The notes beneath the pieces were generated by a model. The model was given only the letters and a program-made list of their open reading frames with translations, did no database searches and was not told the DNA's origin. Below are positions 13,201 through 32,249 of a DNA stretch of 64,000 nucleotides, piece after piece. Source of the DNA: Halorubrum sp. CSM-61 (GTDB lineage Archaea > Halobacteriota > Halobacteria > Halobacteriales > Haloferacaceae). Every line of letters begins with the position of its first letter. Position 1 is the stretch's first letter. Position numbers and translations under genes: made by a program. The stretch spans positions 23,837 to 87,836 of the forward strand of contig NZ_RJJW01000001.1 of assembly GCF_003781945.1 (NCBI RefSeq). Reading direction: 5' to 3'.

Positions 13201-14135
13201 TCCCCTCGGTTGCAGTCGTTGGGATCATCGCCGTGCTGCTGATCTCGGCGACGGCCTCGGGAGCTCTCGCGGCCTCGACGACCGACGCCAACACGGCATC
13301 CCAGTACAGCGTAGAAGACACCTGCCAGACCGAAATCGCACACGACGCGTTTCGAGCTCACAACCAGACGGTTTCCAAGCTCCAAAACGAATCGAAAGCA
13401 CAGTCGACCGTAGACAACACGCGCGTCACGGTCGCAGAAACATCTGGTTTCTACCGCGTCACTGGAGAGAACCCGAACGGGTACTGTGTGGGGATAACAG
13501 TTCAGGTGAGCGAAGACGCGATGCCGGCGGCGAAGATCCCCGGCAGCATCGAGTCGAACGACGGAAACCACTCTGCGACGTGGGATGCGATCCACGACTT
13601 CAACACCTCGGAGACGTACACCGAGGTGACGTTCGTCCTACCGCCAGATACGACGGCCACGTTCGCGCCCTCGGAGGCGCGCGTCCTCTCGCTGTCGTGG
13701 GCATCGGAACGAACAGAAAAGGCTCAAAGCGTCGCTGATCGACTCACAGAACGGTTCTTCGATAAAGACCTCGAGCAACGGCAGTACACGCTCAGCCCAG
13801 ACAACGAACAGGAGGTAACTGTGCCGCTCAAGAACCCGAACACAGACGAACAGGTCGACGAGTGGCAGGCGATGTATACCACCGATGACGAACAATCGTG
13901 GAATACACTCACTCGTGAAAGCTCTGAGAAGGTCTACATCACGGAGTCGGACGAACAGCAGGTCACGTTCCGGTTTAACGATCCGGAGGCCGAGGTACGC
14001 TTTACCGCAAACCCGAACTTCAGAGAGAAGACGGAACACGAGGTTCGTGAATACCTCTCTGGCATTCCGGACCTGTTCTCTGACGGGTCAGAGCAGAGCT
14101 TCGACGCCCCGATCGCAGGGGTGACGGCGACATGA
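13191..14135 (+). CDS. Secreted protein with signal anchor or peptide
   Basis: A 314-aa protein starting at the ATG at 13191 inside the end of the previous gene. Residues 1-27 are a Sec signal (SVAVVGIIAVLLISATASGA, cleavage near LAAST). The rest is extracellular in character: acidic, with sequons (NQT, NES, NHS, NTS) and two Cys (about 44 and 100). The middle is beta-rich and a helical ERTEKAQSVADRLTERFF segment lies before a second beta-rich half. The stop overlaps the next ATG (ATGA). No family recognised. One of three secreted proteins of the cluster. Confidence 0.55.
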   Translation: MEIVPSVAVVGIIAVLLISATASGALAASTTDANTASQYSVEDTCQTEIAHDAFRAHNQTVSKLQNESKAQSTVDNTRVTVAETSGFYRVTGENPNGYCVGITVQVSEDAMPAAKIPGSIESNDGNHSATWDAIHDFNTSETYTEVTFVLPPDTTATFAPSEARVLSLSWASERTEKAQSVADRLTERFFDKDLEQRQYTLSPDNEQEVTVPLKNPNTDEQVDEWQAMYTTDDEQSWNTLTRESSEKVYITESDEQQVTFRFNDPEAEVRFTANPNFREKTEHEVREYLSGIPDLFSDGSEQSFDAPIAGVTAT

Positions 14136-15185: not shown

Positions 15186-15833
15186 GTGTCAGCGCCTTCC
15201 CCGTCCTACGGAGATGACTCCGGGACCGACCTCAGCTCTCGGCGACAGCAACTCGACTACATCCGTGAGGAGCTACTGAAGTACCGACCAGACATCCACG
15301 ACGAAGAACTCCGGGAGGCGGTCTCGGAGTGGTTGATCGACGCATCAGACGTGCCTACTGCTACCGCGCGGGAGTACATCTCTTCGGAGCTTACCTCACT
15401 GCGCCGCGATAACGCGATGCGGATTAAACCCGGCGTCCGATCGCCCGAAGAGGCGTTCCCCGAGGAGTGCTCGGACTGCGAGTATTACGGTAGTGCGTGT
15501 CCGGTGTTGACGGACACGACGGAGGTAGATCGTCGGAACCGTATCATGGACCAGACTCAAGATCCGGACACGCTTCGCTACCTTCTCCGCGAGTACGCAG
15601 TCGACAATTCGTGCGATGTCCTCCTCGATCGGCTCGAGGACCTGAGCCAAGACTACGGCCCGCTACTCCGACGCGGGCAACTCCTGTTGATGCGCGTCGA
15701 GAACATCATCCTCCACGATGACGAGAGCGAGGCCGTGAAGCGAGCCATCGCGAACGAGGAAGCACTGGCTGGCGCCGTCTCGAGAGAGGAGCTTGACCGT
15801 CTCAAGAACGGTCACGACGGAGGGGATGACTGA
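15186..15833 (+). CDS. Cytoplasmic protein with Cys cluster
   Basis: A 215-aa protein with a GTG start. It is largely helical and acidic. A CSDCEYYGSACPV cluster (about residues 96-108) plus a later Cys (about 140) could bind zinc or an iron-sulfur cluster. No transmembrane segment. Its stop overlaps the next ATG (TGATG). Its place between two blocks of membrane proteins suggests a cytoplasmic adaptor. No family recognised. Confidence 0.5.
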   Translation: MSAPSPSYGDDSGTDLSSRRQQLDYIREELLKYRPDIHDEELREAVSEWLIDASDVPTATAREYISSELTSLRRDNAMRIKPGVRSPEEAFPEECSDCEYYGSACPVLTDTTEVDRRNRIMDQTQDPDTLRYLLREYAVDNSCDVLLDRLEDLSQDYGPLLRRGQLLLMRVENIILHDDESEAVKRAIANEEALAGAVSREELDRLKNGHDGGDD

Positions 15834-16873
15834 TGGCAAGTATCGAACGGATCGCCCTCGCTGCGGCGATCGCGCTACTGTTCCTCGTCGTCATCGCCTA
15901 CTTCGCACGGCGCTATCTCAGTAAGGGAGAAACGAACCAGGAGAGCTCACGCGAGCGCGCAGAGCACGAAGCGGAGCAACAGGACTACTCGCTCCCACTT
16001 CGCTCAAAGTTCGGCCAGATGCAGCGGCCAACGCAGTTCATGCTGCTGGGGGCCTGTCTCGTCGGGTTCATCGTGACGTACGAGGTCTACTCGTTCGCGA
16101 AGACTGGTTCGCCGACGCAGATATGGTACGCTCAGCAGACGCAACTCATTCTCGCGGCCATGCTCACGTCTGTGGGAGCGATCGCGTACGAGCGGAAACG
16201 CAACCGTGGCGAGGGAGAGGCCCACATCAAGTTCGAGGACGACAAGGGCGAACTCCAGACGAAGAAGACGATCTACTTCAACACCGACGACATCGCCGAG
16301 ACGGAAGACGGGACGGTTATCCACGAGTACAGCCGAAACCGAATCTTCGGTCTCTACCGTCGTGCGAAGGCGATCGTCGAGGACCGTGAGCTACGACAGG
16401 CGGCAGTGTTCAGGCCCCCGGACGATAAGATCGGTCACCTCGTTCCCGAACACGCGACGTGGCTCGACGACCAGACTGTCGAGTGGCGGACGAAAGGCGA
16501 CCGAGTCCATAAGGCGGAGGGAAAACCCTTCGACTACCGATACAAGCCGCCGTTCACGCTGTCGAGGCGGGAGTATCGGCAGGTTCAGAACGATAACGAG
16601 ATGCTCCGCGACGAGCGGCGAATGCTCGAAACGCGGATCGCCAACCTCCAAGATCAACTCAAAACGATCGAGGGCGACCTCGAGCGTGCTCGCGAGCAGA
16701 ACTTCGAGGAGGTTCTTGCGCAGATCAAAGACATGAGCGATATCTTAGGAAACAGCCACGAGACACAAGTCGTTGAACAGCACGAAGACGTCGGGCGTTC
16801 CAGCCGTAGCAACGGCGAGACGCCGGAAGCACTCGCAGACGGAAGCAACTCCGGACCTGGAGGGAATCGATGA
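15833..16873 (+). CDS. Membrane protein with cytoplasmic coiled coil
   Basis: A 346-aa protein. An N-terminal helix (IALAAAIALLFLVVIAYFA) is followed by two more (FMLLGACLVGFIVTYEVYSF and ILAAMLTSVGAIAY, about 68-123). The remaining 220 residues are hydrophilic: a beta-rich domain, then a long heptad-like coiled coil (about 255-310, ERRMLETRIANLQDQLKTIE and onward) and a disordered tail. The arrangement fits a membrane scaffold that recruits a cytoplasmic motor. It overlaps the next gene by 4 nt. No family recognised. Confidence 0.55.
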   Translation: MASIERIALAAAIALLFLVVIAYFARRYLSKGETNQESSRERAEHEAEQQDYSLPLRSKFGQMQRPTQFMLLGACLVGFIVTYEVYSFAKTGSPTQIWYAQQTQLILAAMLTSVGAIAYERKRNRGEGEAHIKFEDDKGELQTKKTIYFNTDDIAETEDGTVIHEYSRNRIFGLYRRAKAIVEDRELRQAAVFRPPDDKIGHLVPEHATWLDDQTVEWRTKGDRVHKAEGKPFDYRYKPPFTLSRREYRQVQNDNEMLRDERRMLETRIANLQDQLKTIEGDLERAREQNFEEVLAQIKDMSDILGNSHETQVVEQHEDVGRSSRSNGETPEALADGSNSGPGGNR

Positions 16874-18297
16874 CTGACACCCGTGCCCGCAGCGTCACGC
16901 TCGTCGTGCTCGGCCTGCTGGTGCTGGCGTCCGTCACGATGGCAGCGCCGGCCGCGGCCGCGAGCTCTTCACCGGCGCCGTCGGCGGGAGCGGTCGATAC
17001 AGTTGCCGTGGAGAGCATCGAGACTGATGTCGCGATGCAGACCAACGAGACGAACAATACGACGGCAACAACGAACCCTGACCGGCCGAGTTTGGCCGAG
17101 CGATCGCGAATCGCACCTGTCGATATCGGCGCCGAATACGCATCCATCACCGCCAAACAGGAGGCTGACGGCTACAACGTGGTCGGCGAGTTCGCGATCT
17201 TCTCGGTGACCGAGGAGGTCGAAGCAGCTCGCATCCAGCAGCCGGGTGCGGAAGTGCGCGTGCTTGATGGTGGACAGACCATCCAGGTTGACTTCGCTGA
17301 GGACGCAGCACCGCCGGACGGCGAGAGCCTGTTCACGATCAAGCTCTTCTACACCGACGGCTCTGAGCGGTCGGTCAGCCTCTACGCGTCGGACACGAAC
17401 CAGATCGTCGCCTCGGCGGAACTACAAGAGATGTCGACGTTCCTCCGAAGCGTGCGCAGCGACGCGGAAGCCAACGGCTACGAAACGACGACCGAGGGCA
17501 TTCGCGCCTACTACGAGGACACGAAGGAGCAGGCAGAGATCTTCTCGAACCTACTCGGTCCCGAGCTCGCTGCCTTCTTCGCGGTGATCGTGACGGCCTC
17601 GCAGTCGTCACTGTTCATCGCGTTCGTCGGCGTCGTGATAATCCTCACCGCCCGCTACATCTACACCACGCACGGTCACAAGATCCGTGCCAAGAAGAAC
17701 GCCGGGAACGCGGCCAAGGACAAGCGCGAGAAGTACCAGCGGTTCTACGAAGAGCAGCGCGAAGCGGCGGCCGAGGAGCCGCTGTCCTCGATCGACGAGA
17801 TCGGCGGTCGCGATATCCTGTGGAACGACCGCTTCGGCGTGTCGACGGTCAAGCAACTTGCCGATCTTGCGGCTGTCGGCGACCCACAGCGTGACGAGAG
17901 TGGGAACATCATCATGGCCGATCCGGAGACTGATGATGTTGACCCGCTTACGGACGCGAATGGTGACGTACTCACTGACAAGAACGGAGATCCGATCGGT
18001 CCGCCGAAGCTCCGACACCACGGTGTCAGTGACCTCGTCGACGCCGAGGCGCTCACGAGTACGTGGCTCGAGCCGATCCTTCGGAGCGGCTATCTGACTG
18101 AAGACGAGGCGCTGGTTCACCTCAAGTACGTACTGAAGCGGATGAGCGCACACTACGGGCAGCGAGAGTACGATGACGCACTCGGACAGATACAGCAGCT
18201 CATCTCGGACCGGAACAGCGGCACCGACATCACCTACGCTGAGTCCGATCGTGGGAGTGGATACAGCGGCGGCACGGCGACTGGAGGGGACGACTGA
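16870..18297 (+). CDS. Large bitopic membrane protein
   Basis: A 475-aa protein with a Sec signal (VTLVVLGLLVLASVTMAAPA), an extracellular beta-rich domain of about 200 residues with NET and NNT sequons, one or two strong transmembrane helices (about 235-265: FFAVIVTASQSSLFIAFVGV and onward) and a 210-residue charged cytoplasmic tail. The tail contains helix-hairpin-like text (FGVSTVKQLADLAAVG) and a calcium-loop-like DANGDVLTDKNGD stretch. It is well suited to pass a signal or force across the membrane. Overlaps on both sides (ATGA; TGATG). No family recognised. Confidence 0.6.
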   Translation: MTDTRARSVTLVVLGLLVLASVTMAAPAAAASSSPAPSAGAVDTVAVESIETDVAMQTNETNNTTATTNPDRPSLAERSRIAPVDIGAEYASITAKQEADGYNVVGEFAIFSVTEEVEAARIQQPGAEVRVLDGGQTIQVDFAEDAAPPDGESLFTIKLFYTDGSERSVSLYASDTNQIVASAELQEMSTFLRSVRSDAEANGYETTTEGIRAYYEDTKEQAEIFSNLLGPELAAFFAVIVTASQSSLFIAFVGVVIILTARYIYTTHGHKIRAKKNAGNAAKDKREKYQRFYEEQREAAAEEPLSSIDEIGGRDILWNDRFGVSTVKQLADLAAVGDPQRDESGNIIMADPETDDVDPLTDANGDVLTDKNGDPIGPPKLRHHGVSDLVDAEALTSTWLEPILRSGYLTEDEALVHLKYVLKRMSAHYGQREYDDALGQIQQLISDRNSGTDITYAESDRGSGYSGGTATGGDD

Positions 18298-20282
18298 TGG
18301 ATAAACCCAAAGAGTACCTCGGCAGCGCACGCGAGTCCACAGCGGATAGACTCGGCAGCGCACGCGACTCGACGGCGGACACACTCGATTCGACGGCCGC
18401 ATACCTCGAATCCGCAACCCCGAGCGTGACCTTACGAGAGTGGGTCGAACGCGCGATCATGCGTCTCGGTGGAGGTAGCTACCGACTCCGGCTCCGACTC
18501 GCGGTGCTCCTCACGGCCGTTCTCGGAATGGTGTTCTTGGCGGCGATCGGCGCCTTCTTCTCGTCGAGCATGGAACTGGCGGCGGACTCCGAGCCCATGC
18601 TGACGTTCGTCGCGAGGTTGATGACGAACTTCTGGGCGTGGGGTATGCTGTTCCTGCTCGGTGCGCTCTTCTACGCGAAGATGACCGGGCGGATGATGGC
18701 TCGAGAAGCGGCTTCAGAAACGCGCTTTTCGGTCCGTACGGTGCGGCGGCTCGCCGCCGAGGCGCGGACGACGAACGGGACGATCCCGATCGACGGGACG
18801 ACCGACCACTCGAAAGACCAACTCAAGGCGAAGCTGCTCCGAGCGTTCAGCGGCGAGCTCGATCTCGACGGAGACACTGTCGCTGAAGAGTCGGTGATCG
18901 ACACCGAGAGTCGAAGCGTCGAGACGCCGGGGCTACCAGAACCGGACTTCGGCGGTGCGCTGGTGGAGGCTGGTGATGGCGATGTAGAGGACACAACCGA
19001 TGAGGATGACGATACCGCCACTCCAAAGGAGGAGTCGAAACATATCGATCGGGACGCCCTGTACGAAGCGGTCGGTGTCGATCCGCTGAACGCAAAACTC
19101 TCTGGATGGGGAGAAGAGGACGTCAACGACATCACCGAGGCGATGCTCTTTGACGGAGCGTGTAAGGGGTTCGATGTCGCAGAGGCGCTCTCCGCGGCTG
19201 ATACAGACGCCGAGGTTCCAGCACCACCGGACCCGAAGGATGCGGTCGTTCACGGCCTCACGCGTGACGAGGACGGCAACCTTGTCGCGGATACGGAGTC
19301 GGAACCCACCGAGTTGGTGCCGTACGAGGGTGAGGATGCGACCGATACTGATGAGACCGACGTCGACGAGCCGACGACGGTAAGCATCGCGACCCGGCTG
19401 AAGCGTGGGATCCAGACGCTACGGATGGACCTCGCGACGGGACTCAACGTTTCCGAGCTCGCATATCGGTTCGGGATCCCGGCTTCTCTCACTGCCATGC
19501 TGATCGTCGTGCTGAACCAGACGCTCTGGTTCAGCGTGTGGGTCTACCCGATCATCATCGCGGTCTCGACCCTCGTCGGCGGAGTCTACTACACTGGCTA
19601 CAAATGGCGGCAGCATCGGCGTCTCGAATCCCTCCGGCACGAGACCGAGGCCGCAAGCTGGAACACGGTTCGCGTCCTCGCGAAGCGTGTCGAAACAGAG
19701 GAGATTACCGTCTACATGGCGTGGATGTCTGGGAAGCGATACGCAGACTACGACAAGGCCCGCCTCGCGAACAAACTCGCCGGCCGCTGGCACCAGTTCC
19801 TCAACTCGGGCGAGTGTTACCCCGCGATTCAGGAGAAGTTCCACCGCGACATCCGGACGTACGACCCCGCGCTGTACTACACCGAGTACGGTGACGAGGA
19901 AGACGGCCGCGCGGCGATCTACGACGATATCGTTCGCGAAGTCAAGCAAGCGCGTGATCCTGCGGGCATCGTACCGAAGGATCAACTCGCCGAGCGGGTG
20001 ATGAATCGCGACTTCGGACTCGGGCACGACCCCGATCTGATCGCCGAGTGCTACGAAGATCTCTACCCTGAAGTGCTCGCCGAGCACGATGTCGACCTCG
20101 AGGACACCGATGGCAACGAGAAGACGGTGACCATCGTTCACCTTCGCTCGCGACGGATCGAGCCTGAGCTCGCGAAGCTCCGAACGCAGTTCGCTGCCTC
20201 CGTCTCCGCCGACGACGAGGGGGGCTACATGCTCCCGGATGCCGAACAGCCCCACATTCCGTGGGTCGACACCGGTGCGTAG
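18297..20282 (+). CDS. Large polytopic membrane protein with N-terminal repeats
   Basis: A 661-aa protein. Residues 8-40 carry a degenerate repeat (LGSARESTADR, LGSARDSTADT, LDSTAAYLES). Four transmembrane segments occur in two pairs (about 63-88 and 103-123; about 400-418 and 422-445), each pair flanked by basic residues. A long acidic linker (about 190-370) separates the pairs. The C-terminal 215 residues are soluble and probably cytoplasmic. It directly precedes the P-loop ATPase gene (24-nt gap), the position of the inner-membrane partner of secretion or conjugation ATPases. No family recognised. Confidence 0.55.
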   Translation: MDKPKEYLGSARESTADRLGSARDSTADTLDSTAAYLESATPSVTLREWVERAIMRLGGGSYRLRLRLAVLLTAVLGMVFLAAIGAFFSSSMELAADSEPMLTFVARLMTNFWAWGMLFLLGALFYAKMTGRMMAREAASETRFSVRTVRRLAAEARTTNGTIPIDGTTDHSKDQLKAKLLRAFSGELDLDGDTVAEESVIDTESRSVETPGLPEPDFGGALVEAGDGDVEDTTDEDDDTATPKEESKHIDRDALYEAVGVDPLNAKLSGWGEEDVNDITEAMLFDGACKGFDVAEALSAADTDAEVPAPPDPKDAVVHGLTRDEDGNLVADTESEPTELVPYEGEDATDTDETDVDEPTTVSIATRLKRGIQTLRMDLATGLNVSELAYRFGIPASLTAMLIVVLNQTLWFSVWVYPIIIAVSTLVGGVYYTGYKWRQHRRLESLRHETEAASWNTVRVLAKRVETEEITVYMAWMSGKRYADYDKARLANKLAGRWHQFLNSGECYPAIQEKFHRDIRTYDPALYYTEYGDEEDGRAAIYDDIVREVKQARDPAGIVPKDQLAERVMNRDFGLGHDPDLIAECYEDLYPEVLAEHDVDLEDTDGNEKTVTIVHLRSRRIEPELAKLRTQFAASVSADDEGGYMLPDAEQPHIPWVDTGA

Positions 20283-20306: not shown

Positions 20307-22736
20307 ATGCAAGTATCCAGCGACAGCGTCGACATTCAGGCGCGCGATGACGGGAGTATCGACGATACAGTTGAGGGGCTCCTTCGAGAGAAGCGACGGA
20401 AACGACAGCAGAAAGAGGACCTCAACGTCGAGGCAGAAGTCCGAGATCACCTGACGATCGCGAAGGAGGTCCTCGCCGAAGACAGCGAAGCGGCAAGCGA
20501 GGTCCTCGGAGAACTTCACGAACTCCTTTGGGAGGACGACGATGTCGAGGTCGTGATCGACCGTCGGGAGTCACTCCTCGAAGACAACACGGAGCTATCG
20601 GCTCGGGAGGCGACGAGCATCCGCTCGCAGTTCCGGCGTCACACCCGGCTTCGAGAGACCGGGAACCGCTCTCCGGACCCCGAGACCGAGTACAAGGTAC
20701 TCTTGAACGTCGCGAAGGCGCTCAACTACTACTCGTCGGTCACGGAGATGACGCCGTACGCGCCGGTGACGATGGAGACGATCGACGAGCCGGGCTCGGA
20801 GAAGACGGAGAACCCGACGCCGGTCGGTCGGCGCCGGCTGAAGGCGGCGACGTCGCTTTCGACCGAGGACGCGGCCGTCGAGATCCCACACCAGTCGTGC
20901 GACCACATCCTGTGCGTCGCGCTCCCGCGCTCGGGCAAGGACTCGACGCTCGCGAGCATCGGGATGAACCTCTGGAACGAGCACGGCTACAAATACATCT
21001 CCATCTTCGACGACGGTCGGATGGAGACGCCGATGATCTCGATCCCGAACGACGACCCCGGCATCCGGTCGAACCTCGACCGGCTCGACCAAGACCCGAA
21101 GGCGTTCGACTCGGAGGTGTTCGTCCCGGCGATGCAGGGCGTCCCCGACACGCTCCCGAACAACTTTCGGGAGTTCACGATCGGCGTCGATAGCCTTACG
21201 CCCCACCTCATCTTGCGCCTCTCCGGCGTCAACACGAGTGACGAGACTGCGGAAGACCGCATCGAGCAGGCGCTCCAAGAGACGCTCGAGAACTCGGGCG
21301 GCATCCCTGAGCTCGTCGGACGGATCCAAGAGAAGGCCGGCAACCAGAACGCGACGATTGAGTGGACCGAGCAGGCCCAGAACGGCTCCCAAGAGACCTA
21401 CACCGCTCACTACGAAATGGAGCGGTCGAAGGCGCTCAACAAGGCGGCTGCCCGACTCTCGAAACTCGCAGGGGACGGTCTCATCGCGAGCGCTGCCGCC
21501 GAGACGAACATCTCGATGCGGGATGTCGTCGCCAACCAGGAGCAAGCCGCTGTCCTCTGCTGTAACTTTATCGCGGACGGTCAGGAGTCGATCAAGTACA
21601 CGATCATCGATCTGTGGCTCCGGCTCGTCTACAAGGTCAGGGACGAGTACCCGCGGCTCCCTCGGGTTGCGCTTGAGATTCGCGAGCTCAAGGACATCGC
21701 ACCCTCAAAGCTCGGCGACGCCCGGTACAAAGAGCAGGTCAAGTCACTCCGGCAGACGCTCTTCACGCTCTCGACTCGGGGCGGGTCGCGGCGTATCCTA
21801 CTGCTCGGGTCGACACAGAAGCTCAACGACGTTTACAAGCCAGTCCGGTCGAACATGGCGACGAAGATCCTTCTCCGACTCGGCGAGGAGGGGATCGAGA
21901 CGCTCGATAACTCCTACCACTTCGGCCACGAGCAGAAGCGGCAACTCTCGGAGTTCAGCGTCGGCTGGGGGATGCTGATCGCAGGCGGCGAGAAAAAGTG
22001 GCCGATCGAGTGGCGCGGAGCTCCCTGCGGCCTCGGCCTCGGAGACCAGCACTGGCTCGACCGGTTCGGAACGGCCCGCGGCGCCCGCGTCCGGCAGAGC
22101 GAGTCCGACCGGTGGACCGATCGGCACGCCGGCGAGGACTGGTGGGTACATGTCCCGGACGCGAGTGTTCATCCGGGCGATACCTCGCCTGAGATCGGCG
22201 ACACCTACAGCGAGTGGTATCTCCTCGAGTCAGACTTCCCCGACGAGATGGAACCAGACGACGTCGACGCAGAGGCCGTTGAGGAGGCGCTTGCGGAGCG
22301 CCGGGAGTATAACACTCCATCGGACATCGCACTCTCCGAAACGCTCTCCTCGGACAAGCGGCGCCGGTTGTCGATGCGCTCGGCCGATGGAGACGGCAGC
22401 GAAAACGTTGAGGCGGTACTCGACCGCCACGGACTGCCGCCGGAGCTCCGTCGCTGGGTCATCACGAAGGCGGGAGAGATACGTAAGGCGCCCACACGTC
22501 AGAAGCTCGCTGAGGCCGTCCATGTGATCGGTAGCTACGACGACCTTCACACGTACTCCGACATCGGCGAACACCTCTCGTACAGTGCGTCGACGTTTGC
22601 CAACTACATCTCGGAGGAAGACACGCCGCTCTCACCGTGCGTCACCAAAGACGGGAAGGCGTACGTCCTCACTGAGGTCGGTAAAGCCGCTCTCGACGCC
22701 GACTGGGACGTGATTATTGAGGCGATACAAGACTGA
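20307..22736 (+). CDS. VirD4/TraG-like P-loop ATPase (degenerate Walker A)
   Basis: An 809-aa soluble ATPase. The P-loop is ALPRSGKDST (Lys about 211), closest in form to the xPTRSGKGxx loop of VirD4/TraG coupling proteins, with Ala for the first Gly and Asp after Lys. A candidate Walker B is VALEIRELKDIAPSK (about 454-468, Glu457/Glu460). A 180-residue helical region precedes the motor. The C-terminal 120 residues look like a winged-helix module (LAEAVHVIGSYDDLHTYSDI and onward). It has no transmembrane segment, so it would rely on the membrane proteins upstream. The stop overlaps the MCM-like start (TGATG). Role inferred: DNA-pumping motor for transfer or packaging. A HerA/FtsK-type assignment is also possible. 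Confidence 0.55.
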   Translation: MQVSSDSVDIQARDDGSIDDTVEGLLREKRRKRQQKEDLNVEAEVRDHLTIAKEVLAEDSEAASEVLGELHELLWEDDDVEVVIDRRESLLEDNTELSAREATSIRSQFRRHTRLRETGNRSPDPETEYKVLLNVAKALNYYSSVTEMTPYAPVTMETIDEPGSEKTENPTPVGRRRLKAATSLSTEDAAVEIPHQSCDHILCVALPRSGKDSTLASIGMNLWNEHGYKYISIFDDGRMETPMISIPNDDPGIRSNLDRLDQDPKAFDSEVFVPAMQGVPDTLPNNFREFTIGVDSLTPHLILRLSGVNTSDETAEDRIEQALQETLENSGGIPELVGRIQEKAGNQNATIEWTEQAQNGSQETYTAHYEMERSKALNKAAARLSKLAGDGLIASAAAETNISMRDVVANQEQAAVLCCNFIADGQESIKYTIIDLWLRLVYKVRDEYPRLPRVALEIRELKDIAPSKLGDARYKEQVKSLRQTLFTLSTRGGSRRILLLGSTQKLNDVYKPVRSNMATKILLRLGEEGIETLDNSYHFGHEQKRQLSEFSVGWGMLIAGGEKKWPIEWRGAPCGLGLGDQHWLDRFGTARGARVRQSESDRWTDRHAGEDWWVHVPDASVHPGDTSPEIGDTYSEWYLLESDFPDEMEPDDVDAEAVEEALAERREYNTPSDIALSETLSSDKRRRLSMRSADGDGSENVEAVLDRHGLPPELRRWVITKAGEIRKAPTRQKLAEAVHVIGSYDDLHTYSDIGEHLSYSASTFANYISEEDTPLSPCVTKDGKAYVLTEVGKAALDADWDVIIEAIQD

Positions 22737-23686
22737 TGGTCAACGAAGAACAAATGAAATCGGCCTTCAACGCGCTGTATACTGGCGCGTACGAGGGCGA
22801 TTCTCAAGAAGCAGAACAGTCAGACGGGAACGTATCGATCCGGATCCAATGGTCCGATCTCGAGGCCGTCGACGAGGAGGTCGCGCAGTACACGCTGAAA
22901 AAACCCTCTGCCGTCAAAGAGTGCGCTGAGGATGTCCTCTCCAATTCGATCCAGAAAATCGAGAGCAACCTCCATGTCCGGTTCCACGATCTCCCGGACT
23001 CGCGCTCGCTTCGCGTCAGCGACTTGCGCGCATCGCACCTGGGCGAGCTCGTCTCGATCAGCGGGAAGGTCGTCGACGCCGAGAAGGTACAGCCGTTTCT
23101 GAAGAAGGGTGCGTTCAATTGCCAGCGGTGCGGAACACTGACGTATCTCCCGCAGACATACGGCGATATCAGGGAACCGGTTGAGTGTCCGGGGTGCGAA
23201 ACCTCTGGACCGTTCGGGGTCATCCAACGCCACTCTGACATCATCGACTTCAAGTGCGTCATCCTGAAGACGACGAACACGAATCTGGAAGACCCGCCAG
23301 TACTCCCGATCTACCTCCTCCATGATCTTGTCGAGACCGTCGGTGAGGGCGACGAAGTGAGTGTTGCCGGCTCGTACAACATCCACCCGATGAGCCGACA
23401 GAAAGAGACTGAATTGAATACGTACGTCGAAGCGGTCGACATCGAGGTCGAGGAGTACGCCGAAGTCGATTCGGTCAACGCAGAGGACCTCACTGCGTAC
23501 ATCTACGAGGGCGTCAACAAGATGATGGAGACCGAAACCTCGTTCGGGGCCTCCCGTGACGACGTCGTCGAGTGGATAGGTGAGAAGTACGGCGTCCGTG
23601 AAACGGAGATTGAGAACCGAATCGACGAGCTCGTCGATGAAGATGGCGAGGATCTCAGCCAGCAGGCCGGCCAACTCATCAAGTGA
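22736..23686 (+). CDS. MCM N-terminal-like protein lacking the AAA+ motor
   Basis: A 316-aa protein with the hallmarks of the MCM replicative-helicase N-terminus: the RVSDLRASHLGELVSISGKV OB-fold segment (about 95-114), KVQPFLKKGAFNCQRCGTL and ECPGCETSGPF giving a C2-C2 zinc site (Cys about 129, 132, 151, 154), then the second half of the OB barrel. It ends with a small helical module (FGASRDDVVEWIGEKYGV) like the MCM C-terminal winged helix. The AAA+ ATPase region, about 350 residues in real MCM, is absent and the frame shows no break. It is coupled to the ATPase gene. Inferred role: loader, clamp or DNA-binding ring for that ATPase, or a modulator of host MCM. Confidence 0.75.
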   Translation: MVNEEQMKSAFNALYTGAYEGDSQEAEQSDGNVSIRIQWSDLEAVDEEVAQYTLKKPSAVKECAEDVLSNSIQKIESNLHVRFHDLPDSRSLRVSDLRASHLGELVSISGKVVDAEKVQPFLKKGAFNCQRCGTLTYLPQTYGDIREPVECPGCETSGPFGVIQRHSDIIDFKCVILKTTNTNLEDPPVLPIYLLHDLVETVGEGDEVSVAGSYNIHPMSRQKETELNTYVEAVDIEVEEYAEVDSVNAEDLTAYIYEGVNKMMETETSFGASRDDVVEWIGEKYGVRETEIENRIDELVDEDGEDLSQQAGQLIK

Positions 23687-24062
23687 GTTTTTCCAGCCTG
23701 TTCTCATTGGTTCCTTTCCCAATAGAATCGGCACTGTGAGCCCGACACAGGCGAACCTATGATACTCTGAGGAACTGTAACCGCACGTTCCGATTATCCC
23801 TGGCCCGCGCGCTACGTACCGCGTACACGTTAGAGACTCCACGACAAAGAAGAAATGGGTCAGGTGGACCGACACCGTGGCGTCCGCAGCCTGCGCCCAT
23901 CTGTCCTTCACAGTACAACACAAAAGGTCGCCCACACCGGCGATACCGGTACCGATACCGTTACCGACATCGATATCGGAACCGGTACCCAAATCGATAC
24001 CGAAACCGATACCGGGCGAAATAGCGGGTTAAATCGTCTCTAACTTCTATTACTGTCTCAGA
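23687..24062. other. Convergent intergenic region
   Basis: A 376-nt gap between the plus-strand MCM-like gene and the minus-strand Toprim gene. Apart from the hexamer array annotated separately, I see no gene; weak frames here are low-complexity products of the repeat. Confidence 0.6.
23941..24012 (+). repeat. Hexanucleotide tandem repeat, consensus CGRTAC
   Basis: Twelve consecutive 6-bp units in perfect phase: cgatac, cggtac, cgatac, cgttac, cgacat, cgatat, cggaac, cggtac, ccaaat, cgatac, cgaaac, cgatac. Most keep cg at the start and ac at the end. The array contains several ggtacc and atcgat palindromes. It lies between convergent genes. It may be an iteron, a protein-binding array, a transfer-origin-like site or a slipped-strand repeat. 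Confidence 0.75.
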
Positions 24063-25532
24063 CTATTGTCCCTCTCGGTGGCGATCGATTCGTGCAACGT
24101 TCTCGACGTAGTCGCGATCCGTGTCGAAGAGTGGATCTTCGGGCAGTGACCCCTGCCCTTCCGGCGCCGAGACCTCGGGGAAGCACGTCTCCTCAACGGC
24201 TTGCGACGTCTCACGAAGCCACGAGCGAAACTCAGACTGATTTTTTAATTTGCGCAGTGACTCGAACGCCTCCGCCGCGGCCGTGTATTCCTCATTGAAT
24301 CGATCGAGCCACACCCGTAACTCGTCGAGGTTGTCCTCGACGCCTGCCTCGTCGATCGCGGCGACGATCGCGTCGTGCGCGTCATTCTTCCATTGCTGGA
24401 TCGCCTCGCGGTTCCGTTCGGGGAGCTCACGATCAACGTACGGTGTCACGCCGTCGCGGACGATTCGCTTGAAGTCTTCAGCCTTCTGCTCAAGCGCGTT
24501 CAACTCGCAGGCACCGGTTCCCTTTCGCTGCTCCCAGTCAGACACCAGGGTATCGTACGCGCGACCGCCAGTCCCCGTGTGACGAGACTCCTCGATCGGC
24601 TTTCGCGGTAGGCCGAGCTCGCGAATCTGCTCCGGCGTTACTGCGAGTTGTTCAACGACGACTCTGTGGGCGAGGTTACCGCGGATATCGAGCCACGATA
24701 GCTTCGAGCTCATGTTCGCTGCCATGTCGTCGCCCTTGGGGTCGTGGTCGGAGAGATAGAGCACGACGGCCGGCTTGTCCGCCTCGTTCACTCGCTGGAC
24801 GAACTGGTGCGCGATAGTGAGTGAGAGATCCCCCTCGCCCTCCACGACGACATTCACACCCAGATCCTTCGCGAGCGTGTGGATGTATCCTGGTAGCGTT
24901 TTCTCACACCACAGTTCCACGTGATACGGCGACTGCTTCTGCCGGTCAAACCGAATCTGACTCGCGAGGTCGTCGACGATCCGGTCGGCCACGTACTCAG
25001 CAAAATCGTCCGTCTCCGCGTCGAAATCGAGCATGGCCTCCGCGTCCGGATCCGGGATCGCCGGCGTCGAGACACCCATCGGAATGGACACCTCGGCTGG
25101 GTCGACGGTGTCTTGATGGCCACCATATCGTGTGACAATTGTCTGATCATGCTTGTCGTCACGGACACCGTCTAAAGGCACGTATCCGAGGATTCTCGCG
25201 AGTACGGAAGCTTCCTCCAAGTAGTCGTAACACCGCTGTGTGTTCTGGTATATTGCCCACGAACAGTCGGTCGGTGGCTCGACATCGAGGTCGTTCATCG
25301 TGACATAGTAGTGAACACCGCGGGGATGGATCTCTTTCTCGTCGCGCCCGTCAACCGCTTCTTTCCACAATTCTGCGAACCACTCAGCCTTCGCATGGTC
25401 AGCGTCTGTCCCTCTGTACATGGGATCCCGTCGACGACTCTGAATCAAGAGATCCTCGGGCTCGACGTCGTATTCGCCAGCCTGCGACTTTATCCACTGG
25501 CGGAGTGACGATGGCTCACCGTTTTTAGACAT
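24063..25532 (-). CDS. Spo11/Top6A-like protein with Toprim domain
   Basis: A 489-aa protein. A winged-helix-like region ends in RGVHYYVTMND (Tyr75/Tyr76), resembling the REIYY block that carries the catalytic tyrosine of Top6A/Spo11. It is followed by the conserved YQNTQRCYDYLEEASVLARI text and a LGYVPLDGVRDDKHD motif. The Toprim fold is shown by ELWCEK (Glu210) and LYLSDHDPKGDD (Asp262, Asp264), the metal-binding acids. A 200-residue helical tail follows. No Top6B partner is encoded nearby. Inferred activity: DNA nicking, cleavage or transesterification in element replication or transfer. A TATA-like gtgtataaac sits at 25595-25604 upstream. Confidence 0.6.
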   Translation of the reverse strand: MSKNGEPSSLRQWIKSQAGEYDVEPEDLLIQSRRRDPMYRGTDADHAKAEWFAELWKEAVDGRDEKEIHPRGVHYYVTMNDLDVEPPTDCSWAIYQNTQRCYDYLEEASVLARILGYVPLDGVRDDKHDQTIVTRYGGHQDTVDPAEVSIPMGVSTPAIPDPDAEAMLDFDAETDDFAEYVADRIVDDLASQIRFDRQKQSPYHVELWCEKTLPGYIHTLAKDLGVNVVVEGEGDLSLTIAHQFVQRVNEADKPAVVLYLSDHDPKGDDMAANMSSKLSWLDIRGNLAHRVVVEQLAVTPEQIRELGLPRKPIEESRHTGTGGRAYDTLVSDWEQRKGTGACELNALEQKAEDFKRIVRDGVTPYVDRELPERNREAIQQWKNDAHDAIVAAIDEAGVEDNLDELRVWLDRFNEEYTAAAEAFESLRKLKNQSEFRSWLRETSQAVEETCFPEVSAPEGQGSLPEDPLFDTDRDYVENVARIDRHREGQ

Positions 25533-27359: not shown

Positions 27360-27662
27360 TCAGAGCCGAAGGGATTCTGTTGACCGAAGAGCCTGTTTCG
27401 GAGGACAAGCGCCGGGAGCATACATCGACGGACAGAAAAGCGCCGCGACGCGCCGACTTTGCGCGAGCAGCTCGTCGACGGTCGTCTCCCGGCCCATCTC
27501 CCGCTCGGCGGCGGCGATCGATTTGAGCCGCTCTGCGACGCCGGGAAAATCGGAGCCGTCGCTTACCAGCTCCGAGAATCGCACGTCATCGAGTGTGTCA
27601 CGAGGATTATTCATTGGTGTTGTTACGTCGTCTCGAATACCGGTAAAATATGGCAGTGACAA
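27360..27662 (-). pseudogene. Remnant resembling the start of a second Toprim-type gene
   Basis: A 100-aa frame. Its RETTVDELLAQSRR segment matches in layout the EPEDLLIQSRR near the start of the Toprim protein at 24063-25532. The following residues (VAALFCPSMYAPG) lose the resemblance, as if frameshifted or cut. It lies upstream of, and on the same strand as, that gene with the flippase between. I infer a truncated paralogue or a duplicate left by rearrangement. It could also be an unrelated small gene. Confidence 0.35.
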
Positions 27663-28044
27663 CTCTCACGCGAGTAACCGAACTGGCCTTTCGTGTGACA
27701 CGAATGTCCAAAGTATTTATCATATAGAACCAGAAAAGCTTCGATGCGGCAACACAGCGTTGTCGCTCTGCCGGCACAACCCCCTTTACTGCCCTCATCT
27801 CGTGAGCGGCGCCGATCTCGATGAGTTCGCCGACCTCGGAGCCTCGGCTGTCGTCGGTGAAGCAAGACCAGTGCGGCGGACGTCGACGACGAGAAAAGCG
27901 CCGTCGACGCGTCGGCAGAAGCTTTGGGGGGTTGTGCCGGGAGCGACCCGTGGGCCGCGTGTCGATGTAGCCGTGTCGGGTAGTTAACCCTCAGCCTGAT
28001 CCACGCTGGAAGTGAAAGTGGACGGGTGGTCGTCCTGTTCGAGA

Positions 28045-28505
28045 CCCCACCCACCCCTCGTTCCTACTGTAAGCCGGCCTCGGTGTAGGGGCGAGAAAGA
28101 ATCCATGGAGACAGTTGCTGCGGTCGATTCCTGCGGGTAGCGTTCGCGGGACGGCCGTTCGCTGCCAAATCACTCGCCGAAAGCCGCCTCGGCTTACCAC
28201 TACACAGAAAGTGCGGTACGGTAGCAAACGACACATATTGTAATAAACATTGCGGGAAGAGTCGCGGTTCGGGATCGAGGCGGGTCCACCGCGATCGAGA
28301 TACAGTCGGAACGAGGGGTGGGTGGGGGACAACGACTCGCGCCGGTCCGGCCGAGATACACTCGGAGCGAGGGGGGTGCGAGACACCGACTACCGGCACG
28401 ATACAGTAGGAACGACGGGGGTGTACCCACGTTCCAACTGTACTCGTGTCCGGGATACGCCTACTGACGATACCTATTTCGTTAGGATACAGTTGGAGCG
28501 GGGTA
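28045..28505. other. Replication origin with ORB-like boxes
   Basis: Repeated boxes of the type gatacagtcggaacgagggg upstream of orc1/cdc6. Direct copies are at about 28298-28327, 28354-28378, 28399-28422 and 28486-28505; inverted copies at 28045-28072 and 28425-28444. They share the acagtNggaacg core followed by a G-run, the layout of haloarchaeal origin recognition boxes. The inverted and direct sets flank about 220 bp containing an A/T-rich spot (28229-28250) that could be the unwinding element. Orc1 binding is inferred from adjacency and family knowledge. Confidence 0.75.
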
Positions 28506-28513
28506 GATATATG
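28504..28513 (+). promoter_or_regulatory. TATA-like box of orc1, overlapping the last ORB
   Basis: gtagatatat overlaps the distal edge of the nearest ORB-like box and lies about 25-30 nt before ATG 28538. The overlap suggests that Orc1 represses its own promoter. This also favours ATG 28538 (or 28532) over the earlier GTG at 28517. Confidence 0.4.
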
Positions 28514-28537
28514 TAGGTGGACTTGAAAGGCATGGCT

Positions 28538-29797
28538 ATGCCAGACGACGATCGTCCCTTCGCGGACGACGATCGAGACACGTCCGGCGGTGGCGACCCG
28601 CTGTTCGCCGAGGCGGGCGTGTTTAATCAGACGGAGCTGATCCGTCGCCCCGAACTACTCGAAATCTCTACCGTGCCGGGTAGCGACCGGATCGCCGGCC
28701 GCACCGAGGAGATTCAGTACGTCGCCAGAAACATCGGCCCGCTGGTGACCAACTCGGAACCGACGTCCACGATGATCTACGGGAAGACCGGGACGGGGAA
28801 GTCCCTCGTGAGCAAACACACCTCCCAGCGCGTCGTTCGTGAGGCTGAATCGCGTGGCACGAACATTGAGATGGTGTACGTCGATTGCGCGCAACACAAC
28901 ACGGAAGCGCAGGTGACCTCGAAGATCGCCCGCGAGTTGAACGAGCTCGCCGGCGAACCCGAGTCGATCCCGGTCACCGGGCTCGGGCCGTCGCATTACT
29001 ACTCGTACATCTGGTCGCTACTGGACGAGCACGCAGATGGCGGGATCGTCATCCTCGACGAGATAGATCAGCTCTCTGACGACGGTGTCAACAACCTCCT
29101 GACGCAGTTTTCCCGAGCTGCGGAAAGCGGGAAGACGGATACGTATATCGGAGTCATCGGCATCTCGAACAAAGTCGAGTGGGGTAAAAAACTCAACTCT
29201 CGTGTCCTCTCGTCTCACGGAAACGAGGAGCACGTCTTTCCGCCGTACGACGCTGACCAACTCCGGAACATCCTCTACGCCCGCGAGGACGCGTTTCACG
29301 ACGGCGCGCTCGCCTCCGAGGTCATCCCCCGGACGGCAGCGCTTGCGGCTCGCGAACACGGCGACGCCCGCAAGGCCGTCCGAATCTTGAAGAACGCCGG
29401 GAAGATCGCCGAACGCGAGGGCGCCGAACAGGTGGGGGAACGCCACGTCAACGAAGCGCAGACGAAAGCCGAGGTCGATCGCCTGCGTGAGCTCCTCGCG
29501 ACCGACACACCGCACGCCCGGTACGTGCTCTTAGCACTCGCCGAACTGACGCAAAACACCGACGAGACGAAGTTTCGCACCACGCGTATCTACGACGCTT
29601 ACGGAGAGGTGTGTGATCAGGAGGGCGCCGATCATCTCAAGATCGACCGTGTTCGCGACCTCCTCCGTGAACACGCCTTCAACGACACTGTCGAATCCGC
29701 ACTGAAAAGCGGCGGCCGGGCCGGCGGGACGTACAAACAGCACCGGCTCCTGAAAGATCCGGAGGTCGTCGAGGAGTCGGTCAAACGGGAGATGTAG
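28538..29797 (+). CDS. orc1: Orc1/Cdc6 replication initiator
   Basis: An AAA+ origin-binding initiator of about 419 aa. Walker A is IYGKTGTGKS (about 85-94), Walker B is GIVILDEIDQLSD (about 168-180), sensor 1 is GVIGISNKVEW, and the AAA+ lid carries REHGDARKAVRIL (sensor 2 Arg). The C-terminal part has the winged-helix that contacts origin boxes (TKFRTTRIYDAYGEVCDQEG). I prefer the ATG at 28538 because a TATA-like box lies about 28 nt upstream; an in-frame GTG at 28517 would add seven residues. It sits beside ORB-like repeats, so it most likely drives replication of the element. Haloarchaea carry many plasmid-borne paralogues. Confidence 0.92.
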   Translation: MPDDDRPFADDDRDTSGGGDPLFAEAGVFNQTELIRRPELLEISTVPGSDRIAGRTEEIQYVARNIGPLVTNSEPTSTMIYGKTGTGKSLVSKHTSQRVVREAESRGTNIEMVYVDCAQHNTEAQVTSKIARELNELAGEPESIPVTGLGPSHYYSYIWSLLDEHADGGIVILDEIDQLSDDGVNNLLTQFSRAAESGKTDTYIGVIGISNKVEWGKKLNSRVLSSHGNEEHVFPPYDADQLRNILYAREDAFHDGALASEVIPRTAALAAREHGDARKAVRILKNAGKIAEREGAEQVGERHVNEAQTKAEVDRLRELLATDTPHARYVLLALAELTQNTDETKFRTTRIYDAYGEVCDQEGADHLKIDRVRDLLREHAFNDTVESALKSGGRAGGTYKQHRLLKDPEVVEESVKREM

Positions 29798-29901
29798 TCT
29801 CTCGGAGTTGTCGCGACCGGGCTTTTTGACCGCTGACCGGACAGTACCGGGTATGCGAGCACAACCCCCTACTCCGACCAGCGTCGCGAGCGGTGAGGCC
29901 G

Positions 29902-30591
29902 ATGGGCGTTGACCACCCGACAGGAGCGACCGAGTCGATCGCCGTCGACGACCCGACTCGCCACGTCACCGTTCGCGAGGCCGCCGGCGAGCGCGACGCG
30001 TTCTATCTCGCGCACGTCTGGTCGCGGTGGTTTGGCACCGAGTACGAACATGGCCACCGGTACTCCTCCGGGCGCCTGCCGTACGCGCTCTGTTCCGTCG
30101 CCGGCTGGGAAGTCGACGCCGAACCGGAGCATCTCCACGGGTACGGTGTGGTCGCCGAGCACGACCCGCCCGATCGCGATGGACGCGTGCATGTCGGCGG
30201 CGGCCTCGTGACGATCGACACGGCCGCGGAGACAATCGACAATCTCCCGGACGGCAGGTTCGACGCGGACGCGCTAGTGGGCGAGCGCAACGCGTGGCTC
30301 TGGTTCGGCATCGTCGACGCCGCGTGGCGCGGGCTCGGGCTCGGTCGCCGGTTGTTCGAGGACCGACTCCAGTGGGCTCGCGATCAGGGCGCCGACATGG
30401 CGTTCGCGTACGGGTGGGAACATGACGGTCGGACGAGCCGGCCGCTGTTCGAGGACTTCGGGTTCGTCCCCGTGGAGCGCTTCGAGCGCCTGTACGAGGA
30501 CGAGCGCGACGTGTGCCCTGCGTGCGGGGCGCTGCCCTCGAACGACCGGACGTGTACGTGCGCCGGCGTCGTGTGGGCGCGAGACCTGTAG
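29902..30591 (+). CDS. GNAT acetyltransferase with C-terminal zinc ribbon
   Basis: About 229 aa from ATG 29902 (a GTG at 29893 is in frame). The acetyl-CoA pyrophosphate loop is AWRGLGLGRRLFED (motif A, R-x-x-G-x-G), followed by AFAYGWEHDGR and LFEDFGFVPVERFE, the usual motif B. The last 25 residues hold CPACGALP and TCTCAG, a four-Cys zinc-ribbon-like pair that is unusual for a stand-alone GNAT. The N-terminal half contains an extended loop before the core. The substrate is unknown; a protein or nucleic-acid target is suggested by the zinc ribbon. It follows orc1 on the same strand after about 100 nt. Confidence 0.75.
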   Translation: MGVDHPTGATESIAVDDPTRHVTVREAAGERDAFYLAHVWSRWFGTEYEHGHRYSSGRLPYALCSVAGWEVDAEPEHLHGYGVVAEHDPPDRDGRVHVGGGLVTIDTAAETIDNLPDGRFDADALVGERNAWLWFGIVDAAWRGLGLGRRLFEDRLQWARDQGADMAFAYGWEHDGRTSRPLFEDFGFVPVERFERLYEDERDVCPACGALPSNDRTCTCAGVVWARDL

Positions 30592-30819
30592 CTACGCGTC
30601 GTCCTCTTTGTCCCCGGGCAGCCAGTACACCTCGTTGCGCTCGATGACGCGCCCCTCCTCGACGAGCTGATCGAGCGCGTCACTCAGGCCGCTCGTGTCC
30701 ATTTGCCGGTTCCCCAGATTGATGCCGATTGCCGACTTCGGCATCCCGTTGTGGTGTTCGAGCACCCCGATGATGATCTCCGTCAACGGCTTTTCTGACG
30801 CGGGCGTGTGATCGCTCAT
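30592..30819 (-). CDS. Small winged-helix protein
   Basis: A 75-aa protein with a compact winged-helix pattern: PLTEIIIGVLEHHNGMPKSA as helices 1-2, INLGNRQMDTSGLSDALDQL as the recognition region and VEEGRVIERNEVYWL as the wing. It is divergent from the gene at 30952, and a perfect palindrome lies in the shared promoter region, so autoregulation is plausible. Such short wHTHs are common on haloarchaeal plasmids. Confidence 0.65.
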   Translation of the reverse strand: MSDHTPASEKPLTEIIIGVLEHHNGMPKSAIGINLGNRQMDTSGLSDALDQLVEEGRVIERNEVYWLPGDKEDDA

Positions 30820-30888
30820 ATCGGGTTGTTTGGCTGGAGCAAAGAAAAACAGGTGGGCGACAACCTCTCGGCACCGGTATGCTTTTAC

Positions 30889-30907
30889 GTTACTATATTA
30901 TAGTAAC
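30889..30907. promoter_or_regulatory. 19-bp perfect palindrome in divergent promoter
   Basis: gttactata, one central t, then tatagtaac: a 9-1-9 perfect inverted repeat that also contains TATA-like sequence on both strands. It lies between the minus-strand wHTH gene (start 30819) and the plus-strand genes from 30952. Likely operator for the wHTH protein; inference from position and symmetry. Confidence 0.6.
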
Positions 30908-30951
30908 ATGCGAGCGCAGCGGGGAGACTCGCGGCGCGCAGGTGACCACAC

Positions 30952-31140
30952 ATGGACGAACCTACCGACGGCGGCGCCGTGACCAGTATTGCGGAACAAC
31001 GAACCGTGCCTGATCGCCGGACGACTGACTGCCCCAACTGCCGGGGGACTGTTCGCGAACCCCGATCGGGAGACGCGTGGCTCTGTGACGACTGCGCCCG
31101 GCGCTGGCAGGCGTCAGACCTGCCGGGGGTAGACGAGTAG
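30952..31140 (+). CDS. Small zinc-ribbon protein
   Basis: A 62-aa protein with CPNCRG and CDDCAR knuckles (C-x2-C, 15-residue spacer, C-x2-C), a classic zinc ribbon. The rest is hydrophilic. It ends exactly one base before the next ATG (31141), so the two are translated together. DNA or protein binding is inferred from the fold only. Confidence 0.6.
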   Translation: MDEPTDGGAVTSIAEQRTVPDRRTTDCPNCRGTVREPRSGDAWLCDDCARRWQASDLPGVDE

Positions 31141-31593
31141 ATGCCGAACCAACTGACCCACACCGGCGACGGGCTCGCCCTCCAAGTGACCAAACCCGTC
31201 CGGAGCGCCGGGCTCGTCGAGGAGGACGCCGACGGCGACACGACCCACCGCGCGTCGGTCGTCGCGTACGGCTTCGACGACGCGATCCTCGTGCTCGACC
31301 GCGACACCGACCGCGTCCCGATGGCCGACCGCGCCGAGCTGGTCGCGCTCGCAGCGCGCGAGACGGAGTCGATCCACCGCGGGATCGACACCCGGATTCA
31401 GTACTCCGGGAACGGCTACCGCGTGCAGGTGCCGGCCACGGGGACGGGGCTACAGTCCGGCGACGGGCTCCCGTGTCACGCCGCGCCCGGCCTCCTGGTC
31501 ATGGCGCCGCTCGACGCCGGCGTTGGAACGCGACACCTCCTAGAGGCGCGCCGGACGCAGGCGCTCGATACTGAGGCCAGTGCCGATGAGTGA
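31141..31593 (+). CDS. AbrB-like hypothetical protein
   Basis: A 150-aa protein adjacent to the zinc-ribbon gene. The segment YSGNGYRVQVPATGTGLQSG (about 83-102) followed by CHAAPGLLVM resembles an AbrB/MazE swapped-hairpin (R-V-x-V-P ... G-L-x-x-G-D ... G-x-L-x-x). An N-terminal TGDGLALQVTKPVRSAGLVE may be a second, weaker copy. If correct it would bind DNA as a regulator or antitoxin. The middle part is unassigned. Its stop overlaps the next gene. Confidence 0.45.
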   Translation: MPNQLTHTGDGLALQVTKPVRSAGLVEEDADGDTTHRASVVAYGFDDAILVLDRDTDRVPMADRAELVALAARETESIHRGIDTRIQYSGNGYRVQVPATGTGLQSGDGLPCHAAPGLLVMAPLDAGVGTRHLLEARRTQALDTEASADE

Positions 31594-32005
31594 GAACAAC
31601 ACTGTCCTCTCACTCGAAGCGCACGGCGACGTTGATAACGCGACCACTGACGACGAGCCACCGTTGATGAAATCGCCGGAAGTAACGCTCGCCCGGCCGT
31701 CCGAAGATGACCATGTTGCGATCGTTCGGACCAACGCGCCGGTGTCGTTCTTGGCGATTTACGACCACGATGACCGCAAGAGTTTCAGTAGCGATCTCCA
31801 CCCCTTGACGACCGGCGACGAACTACGCGAGTTCTGGCTTGACGCTGATCGGCTCACCACGGCAACCCACCTCCACGTCAACACTGACGACGGACGCAAG
31901 ATCCCGGCACCCGAGATACACGTCGAGTACCGTGGGTGGCGTGGCCGCGTCGTAAAGCTACTTCGCGACTGGAAACGACGACTCCTGCCAGATGCCGACG
32001 ACTGA
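31586..32005 (+). CDS. Hypothetical protein
   Basis: A 139-aa acidic protein from ATG 31586, which overlaps the previous stop by 8 nt (a GTG two codons earlier is possible). Text such as VAIVRTNAPVSFLAIYDHDD and LTTATHLHVNTDDGRKIPAP suggests a beta-sandwich; the C-terminal 30 residues are basic. No family recognised. It overlaps the next gene by 14 nt. Confidence 0.5.
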   Translation: MSENNTVLSLEAHGDVDNATTDDEPPLMKSPEVTLARPSEDDHVAIVRTNAPVSFLAIYDHDDRKSFSSDLHPLTTGDELREFWLDADRLTTATHLHVNTDDGRKIPAPEIHVEYRGWRGRVVKLLRDWKRRLLPDADD

Positions 32006-32249
32006 GTACGACGCGCTCCTCGACCTGCTTGCCGCGCACCCCGGCGCCGATCGCGACGAGCTTCGTGAGCTGGCCGACGCCGCCGATCGTCTCGACACCG
32101 ACGCCGTCGACGACCTCCTCGACAACGCGCTCGCTCGCGAGGACGCGCTCGAAGCGAACGAACACTACTGGGTCATGCGGACGGGGCGGTTCGCCCCGTC
32201 CGAGTACGACCACTCGCTAACGGGCGAGTGGCGGGACGACAGCCTGTAG
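31992..32249 (+). CDS. Small winged-helix protein
   Basis: An 85-aa protein with TEYDALLDLLAAHPGADRDE, a helical middle and LEANEHYWVMRTGRFAPSEY, which has the same layout as the wHTH at 30592-30819 (helices, then a wing ending in a W/Y-rich strand). It is probably a paralogue. It overlaps the upstream gene. Role unknown. Confidence 0.5.
   Translation: MPTTEYDALLDLLAAHPGADRDELRELADAADRLDTDAVDDLLDNALAREDALEANEHYWVMRTGRFAPSEYDHSLTGEWRDDSL

Follow-up and report, generated by a model that had tools for sequence, protein, structure and literature searches.

The gene at positions 24063–25532 (minus strand) of the window, by which we mean the whole stretch of 64,000 nucleotides that was analysed, encodes a Top6A/Spo11-like protein of 489 aa which almost certainly has the Top6A/Spo11 fold and belongs to a Mini-A-like family. 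Judged from its gene content, the window carries a pR1SE-like plasmid element (apHPV), with the core genes in the left 30 kb. The preferred reading, to which a probability of about 40% is given, is that the protein is a stand-alone Mini-A-like type IIB transesterase of the apHPV that would act site-specifically at box A, a 14-bp palindrome beside its gene, in DNA processing or packaging. Within this reading, the identification as a Mini-A-like enzyme that looks active is strong, and the protein is probably an active transesterase.

The open reading frame has exactly the coordinates of the gene and begins with ATG. The protein consists of an N-terminal conserved stretch (residues ~25–60), a winged-helix domain (~65–130), a Toprim domain (~200–345) and a helical C-terminal tail. 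Since full-length homologues with 52–55% identity are encoded on several haloarchaeal plasmids (of Halopiger, Halomontanus, Haloterrigena, Natronorubrum, Natrinema and Haloarcula), the 489-aa frame is a conserved gene and not a chance frame. Homologues with about 27% identity are found on pR1SE and pR1SE2 of Halorubrum lacusprofundi, the one on pR1SE at 28254–29834, and the N-terminal stretch, QSRRxDPxYxGTxAD..KAEWFAxLW, is common to the protein and its relatives in Chloroflexota and other bacteria. In G008, G015, G187, G194 and G240, of the same genus or family, distant frames of 335–434 aa match the Toprim part (E ~1e-8) and are perhaps another Mini-A type.

Single-sequence searches of Pfam, NCBIfam and PDB with the 489-aa protein gave no match, which includes the relaxase (MOB) families of Pfam, and the profile search of PDB sequences returned only chance coiled-coil matches in the C-terminal tail. 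The curated Top6A profiles of Pfam and NCBIfam did not match either: none of the Pfam domains TP6A_N, Topo_VI_alpha and Toprim was found, whereas the host's own Top6A matches all three. On the other hand, the protein matched PHROG 6247 'DNA topoisomerase' (phrog_6247) with an E of 3.6e-22. Profile comparison with five phage/plasmid relatives of the named Mini-A group gave a Mini-A match at 99.4% probability. This group was taken as Mini-A because Pseudomonas phage NP1, the Mini-A exemplar (PMC7614492), is 52% identical to one of its five members. Against true Top6A, the sequence profile reached 2% probability, yet in register; because this link is weak, the tie to true Top6A rests on structure.

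Catalytic residues were followed in a core alignment of 47 sequences from haloarchaea, bacteria and phages. R71, Y75, E210, G234, S237, D262, D264, G267, P309 and P312 are invariant in it, the core outside the invariant catalytic residues being 20–30% identical, and E210 with D262-x-D264 is also invariant in 9 haloarchaeal sequences and in 17 sequences including bacteria. The Toprim glutamate (Glu210, codon at 24903–24905) and the DxD motif (Asp262-His-Asp264, 24741–24749), both on the minus strand, had already been pointed out in the sequence-only reading, and their invariance bears it out. The same reading had a Tyr-Tyr at 75/76 as the catalytic position. Both tyrosines are present, but the relatives have Y, H, F, R or T at position 76, so that Tyr76 is not conserved and the predicted catalytic tyrosine is the invariant Tyr75 (25308–25310, minus strand). 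Tyr75 lies four residues after Arg71, in the same register as the second Tyr in R-E-L-Y-Y of the host Top6A, and both residues align with the R and the second Y of R-Q-L-Y-Y (RxxYY) in phage Mini-A.

When the full length was modelled first, the match to Topo VI was weaker (Foldseek E 0.012, Z 10.1), and a viral structure library returned nothing useful. A core-only model (residues 40–372), built with the 47 relatives in a deeper alignment, reached a pLDDT of 82.8 and a pTM of 0.77. With this model, Foldseek gave four matches at E < 1e-3, every one a Topo VI-A chain, and in a second structural comparison the top six rows were all Topo VI-A, with Z of 10.1–11.6 over both domains. Spo11 matched with Z of 9.2–9.5 over 204–205 residues, also in both domains, and JetD and MksG chains with Z of 9.7–9.9 in the Toprim part only. 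The Spo11/Top6A-like fold proposed from the letters alone was thus upheld by structure prediction, Topo VI-A being the best match over winged-helix and Toprim, with no better non-topoisomerase Toprim family.

The protein shares with Mini-A the winged-helix and Toprim core, the RxxxY tyrosine, the Toprim E and DxD, the absence of a fused or adjacent B subunit and the carriage on a mobile element. It differs in its extra N-terminal stretch and helical C-terminal tail, and in lying beside a vesicle-plasmid packaging ATPase instead of in a phage replication block. The name Mini-A refers to small size, about 300 aa; because the present protein has 489 aa with extra N- and C-terminal parts, it is called Mini-A-like here and is regarded as a long variant of the group. 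With topoisomerase VI subunit A it has in common the two-domain fold (Z up to 11.6) and the catalytic register, but neither a Pfam Top6A-domain match nor a Top6B on the element. Spo11, the enzyme with which meiotic recombination starts, is the second-best family matching over both domains (Z 9.5). It needs no strand passage to act, as would be the case for a stand-alone enzyme, but it is eukaryotic, has a meiotic B-like partner and shows no close sequence similarity to the 489-aa protein.

The mobile element noticed in the sequence-only reading can be specified as a pR1SE-like apHPV. pR1SE is a plasmid reported to spread in self-encoded vesicles without cell contact, and 40 relatives (apHPVs) have been described, vesicle spread having been shown for pR1SE only (PMC10818511). 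Homologues of its genes, found by blastp against pR1SE and numbered by their order on that plasmid, lie in the same order and on the plus strand at 5–22.7 kb of the window: cluster 1 with ORF6 (C-terminal part only), ORF7 (S8 peptidase) and ORF8 at 5079–8661, ORF17 at 13101–14135, ORF21 and ORF22 at 15186–16873, ORF23 at 16870–18297, ORF24 at 18297–20282 and ORF25 at 20307–22736. For an apHPV, a minimum of five matches among six search proteins (ORF6, 8, 17, 21, 23 and 24) was asked for, and all six were matched at E 8e-8 or better, ORF6 partially. The truncation of ORF6 distinguishes this element from pR1SE, and the vesicle-forming cluster 1 may be broken in it.

The ORF25 homologue, 39% identical to that of pR1SE, is a VirB4/HerA-like packaging ATPase, and ORF25 is regarded as the VirB4/TrwB-like ATPase that recruits the plasmid into vesicles (PMC10818511). 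The next gene (22736–23686, plus strand) encodes, according to Pfam and NCBIfam, an MCM N-terminal/OB-domain-only protein without the AAA+ ATPase. MCM proteins were counted among the apHPV replication genes in the published work, and at least some of these apHPV 'MCM' proteins may be of the same motor-less form; in the core-gene analysis of its main text, a topoisomerase or Toprim is not mentioned (PMC10818511).

Among 391 Halobacteria genomes, 15 intact Top6A-like genes were found, all of them (15/15) within about 3.2 kb of ORF25. Because ORF25 also occurs alone, the Top6A-like gene is a frequent but not universal partner of it. At ORF25 loci without the gene, no trace of it was detected in 10/10 by tblastn and in 8/10 also by profile searches, and no common enzyme was found in its place. 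On the ORF25 tree, presence and absence of the gene are explained by three changes. One Haloarcula plasmid has the Top6A-like gene with both ORF25 and box A absent.

In the window, box A (GACACC-GT-GGCGTC, 23871–23884) is the candidate cleavage site. It is conserved, with the consensus GACRCC-NN-GGYGTC, in the gaps that separate the Top6A-like gene from ORF25 or from the MCM-like gene following ORF25, and as a palindrome beside this gene it is newly described here. A second conserved cis element, box B (TACGTACCGCGTACACGTTAGAGACT, 23813–23838; consensus GTACGCGCGTAC...TAGAGTC), lies on the MCM-like side, about 45 bp from box A and at a nearly constant spacing. The order MCM-like gene, box B, box A, Top6A-like gene is retained whether the last points towards or away from ORF25, and since it is constant in both orientations, box A cannot be the promoter of the gene in convergent loci.

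Of the 19 non-redundant gaps (15.8 kb in all), 13 hold an exact box A, versus three sites in the 269 kb of these loci that lie outside the gaps, and two further gaps have GTTCACC-NN-GGYGAAC with its centre as in box A. Box A or its symmetric variant is therefore present in 15/19 ORF25-gene gaps against 0/10 gene-less ORF25 loci (Fisher p 5e-5, the counts being uncorrected for shared descent). Among the diverged copies, those of pR1SE (27910–27923), pR1SE2 and G009 have one mismatch and that of G097 has two, and half a site is kept in G383. Perfect palindromes with a two-base centre were found in 13/19 gaps, compared with 4.0 in shuffles, and those with other centre sizes in 5 to 9. A nucleotide profile trained on the convergent loci recovered every held-out tandem locus in the correct position and none of the gene-less loci. 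The reverse-trained profile was weaker: among the held-out loci from outside the group used for training, it matched the window best (E 0.0066), and its last row was one gene-less locus at chance level (E 0.7). There are nine 14-mers of the box A type in the whole host genome of 3.7 Mb, and exactly one on each of three relatives' plasmids, at the gap beside the gene.

A locus nested among the carriers, L100 (G085:C2), has kept the MCM-like gene and box B and lacks both the Top6A-like gene and box A, and the pR1SE, G009 and G046 elements keep a box in the absence of the MCM-like gene. These two patterns indicate that box A follows the Top6A-like gene and not the MCM-like gene, and they make it less likely that the MCM-like protein acts at box A. 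The co-occurrence of box and gene could also be explained by their closeness on the DNA, since one deletion can remove two adjacent features. A function as RNA terminator is disfavoured by the two-base loop and the frequent A-C mismatches between the arms; with such mismatches and too tight a loop, we infer recognition as DNA and not as an RNA hairpin. Box A as an Orc1 origin is disfavoured by the separate repeats beside orc1.

Some further sites were recorded. L100 still has half of the site, GGTGTC, close to where box A would be expected. The window has a second exact box A (18014–18027) within the coding sequence of the ORF23 homologue. In pR1SE (L005), a perfect, exact copy is found at 6530–6543, upstream of ORF6 and thus across the core region from the gene, the gene-side copy having the one mismatch.

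Type IIB enzymes leave 2-nt 5' overhangs (PMC8084294), and a homodimer would therefore need a two-fold site with a two-base centre, like box A. In the proposed mechanism, a homodimer of the 489-aa protein would act on the element's own DNA, each protomer attacking one strand through Tyr75 with a metal ion held by E210, D262 and D264. The break would fall at the two-base centre of box A, at 23877/23878 of the window, giving 2-nt 5' overhangs, and the protein would be joined to the 5' ends. Such a reversible or protein-capped break might serve the element in recombination, in multimer resolution or in readying DNA for vesicle loading by ORF25. From its sequence and position, box A is put forward tentatively as the target. 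The full version, in which a site-specific double-strand-break enzyme cuts its own box A at the central dinucleotide, stays on the ends and so links cleavage to vesicle loading, is the more doubtful of the two proposals.

Mini-A proteins are widespread in phages. The present finding joins the question of their role with that of how apHPV DNA is prepared and loaded into vesicles, and naming a 14-bp site makes both testable. If the proposal is true, a target would be known for a Mini-A-like protein, and a defined site for a type IIB enzyme, for the first time, and DNA cleavage would be tied to the loading of a plasmid into membrane vesicles, much as happens with terminases and relaxases elsewhere. 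Potentially, it would also offer a simple, ATPase-free model of DNA cutting by Spo11-type enzymes.

Several observations count against box A as the target. A palindrome with a two-base centre could bind any dimeric protein, such as a regulator or a partition or replication protein, and box A is diverged in the pR1SE clade, reduced to a half in G383 and absent from the Haloarcula plasmid, and no match to it was seen next to the phage and bacterial genes. A possible, if doubtful, alternative is that a Mini-A-like enzyme without site specificity aids the element's replication or recombination through DNA relaxation or scattered breaks, box A being an unrelated site, for instance an operator, partition or replication site. 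The Mini-A gene of phage NP1 is in keeping with it, since it lies in a replication/recombination block with a ligase, a Sak4-like protein, a Cas4-domain exonuclease and a helicase, and so are the phage copies, which have no shared palindrome alongside. As for what Mini-A does, a part in the maintenance of plasmids has been proposed (PMC8084294). Against this, box A tracks the Top6A-like gene and not the MCM-like gene, and the likely Orc1 origin has its own repeats elsewhere (28045–28442). Site-specific action at box A is thus favoured over a non-specific role in recombination or topology. An association of phage Mini-A with terminase was also considered: it is true for Phobos, but blast with the Phobos terminase found it in only 2 of 80 phage loci, divergence limiting this test.

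Since type IIB cleavage normally requires ATP binding by the B subunit (PMC8084294), an unlikely alternative is that the protein borrows the host Top6B to form a hybrid topoisomerase VI with strand passage driven by the host ATPase. The host does have an intact chromosomal Top6A and a Top6B frame, neighbours on contig C4. The Top6B search of its genome found this gene, a marginal match on C16 and none on C11, the contig of the window, in agreement with the lack of a Top6B partner stated in the sequence-only reading. However, the N-terminal 40–60 residues of the 489-aa protein have no detected similarity to Top6A, and bacterial relatives exist with no Top6B among the tested neighbours (0/9 neighbour genes matched Top6B families). 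Top6B is absent from most bacteria. Within one open frame of 1415 aa, the host Top6B match (G000:C4:80055-83846) is split in two, suggesting an intein.

It is improbable that the protein binds DNA in a purely structural role and is catalytically dead. In the literature consulted (PMC8084294), no Mini-A is credited with an activity, but the catalytic residues are all invariant across very large distances, in a core that has otherwise diverged as given above.

About as improbable, or slightly more so, is a stand-in for a relaxase, an enzyme nicking a single strand at an origin of transfer such as the hexamer array in a conjugation-like process. The role of missing relaxase, with the array as target, had been proposed from the sequence. 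Formation of a 5'-phosphotyrosine is to be expected of the 489-aa protein, and the gene adjoins a VirB4/TrwB-like ATPase (PMC10818511). Nevertheless, there is no sign of a missing relaxase, because pR1SE reportedly travels in vesicles and needs no contact between cells (PMC10818511) and 29 of 33 matching plasmid records are typed non-mobilizable. Moreover, Topo VI-type dimers make double-strand breaks (PMC8084294), so that a Top6A-type dimer would be expected to cut both strands, contrary to a relaxase role. The hexamer/12-mer array (CGATACCG-like, 23941–24014) is real, but it was rejected as the general target since among the elements compared it is confined to those of Halorubrum: it is common to the window, pR1SE, pR1SE2, H. 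saccharovorum and G009 and missing from the others. Box A is the better target candidate, being present at nearly all ORF25-linked copies of the gene.

Slightly less probable still is a Toprim nuclease of the JetD/MksG type, a Wadjet-like plasmid-defence effector against rival DNA, for although the Toprim fold is shared, only 137–140 residues are matched versus 218–235 for Topo VI-A, PADLOC gave no JetD model match, the Tyr of the winged-helix domain never varies and SMC genes were not seen alongside.

Returning to the element itself, positions 27451–32249 of the window show 77–90% DNA identity to the pR1SE2/H. saccharovorum side and at their start what is left of another Top6A-like gene, a second copy of the pR1SE type (27360–27662, minus strand; N-terminal part, 83% identical to the protein of pR1SE along 64 aa, E 3.3e-5). 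By sequence comparison, the element is a recombinant mosaic of two apHPV types with the switch point beside the Top6A-like gene, which fits DNA breakage there and is no proof of it. Direct and inverted repeats (GATACAGT..GGAACGA) at 28045–28442, upstream of orc1/cdc6, are likely the replication origin of the element. GATACC arrays with a 12-bp period are found in different Halorubrum elements, at 23941–24014 of the window, at 27767–28254 of L005 and at 10500–11055 of L062. At the left end of the core region, a transposase gene (3519–4883) lies directly upstream of the shortened ORF6 (5079–6167).
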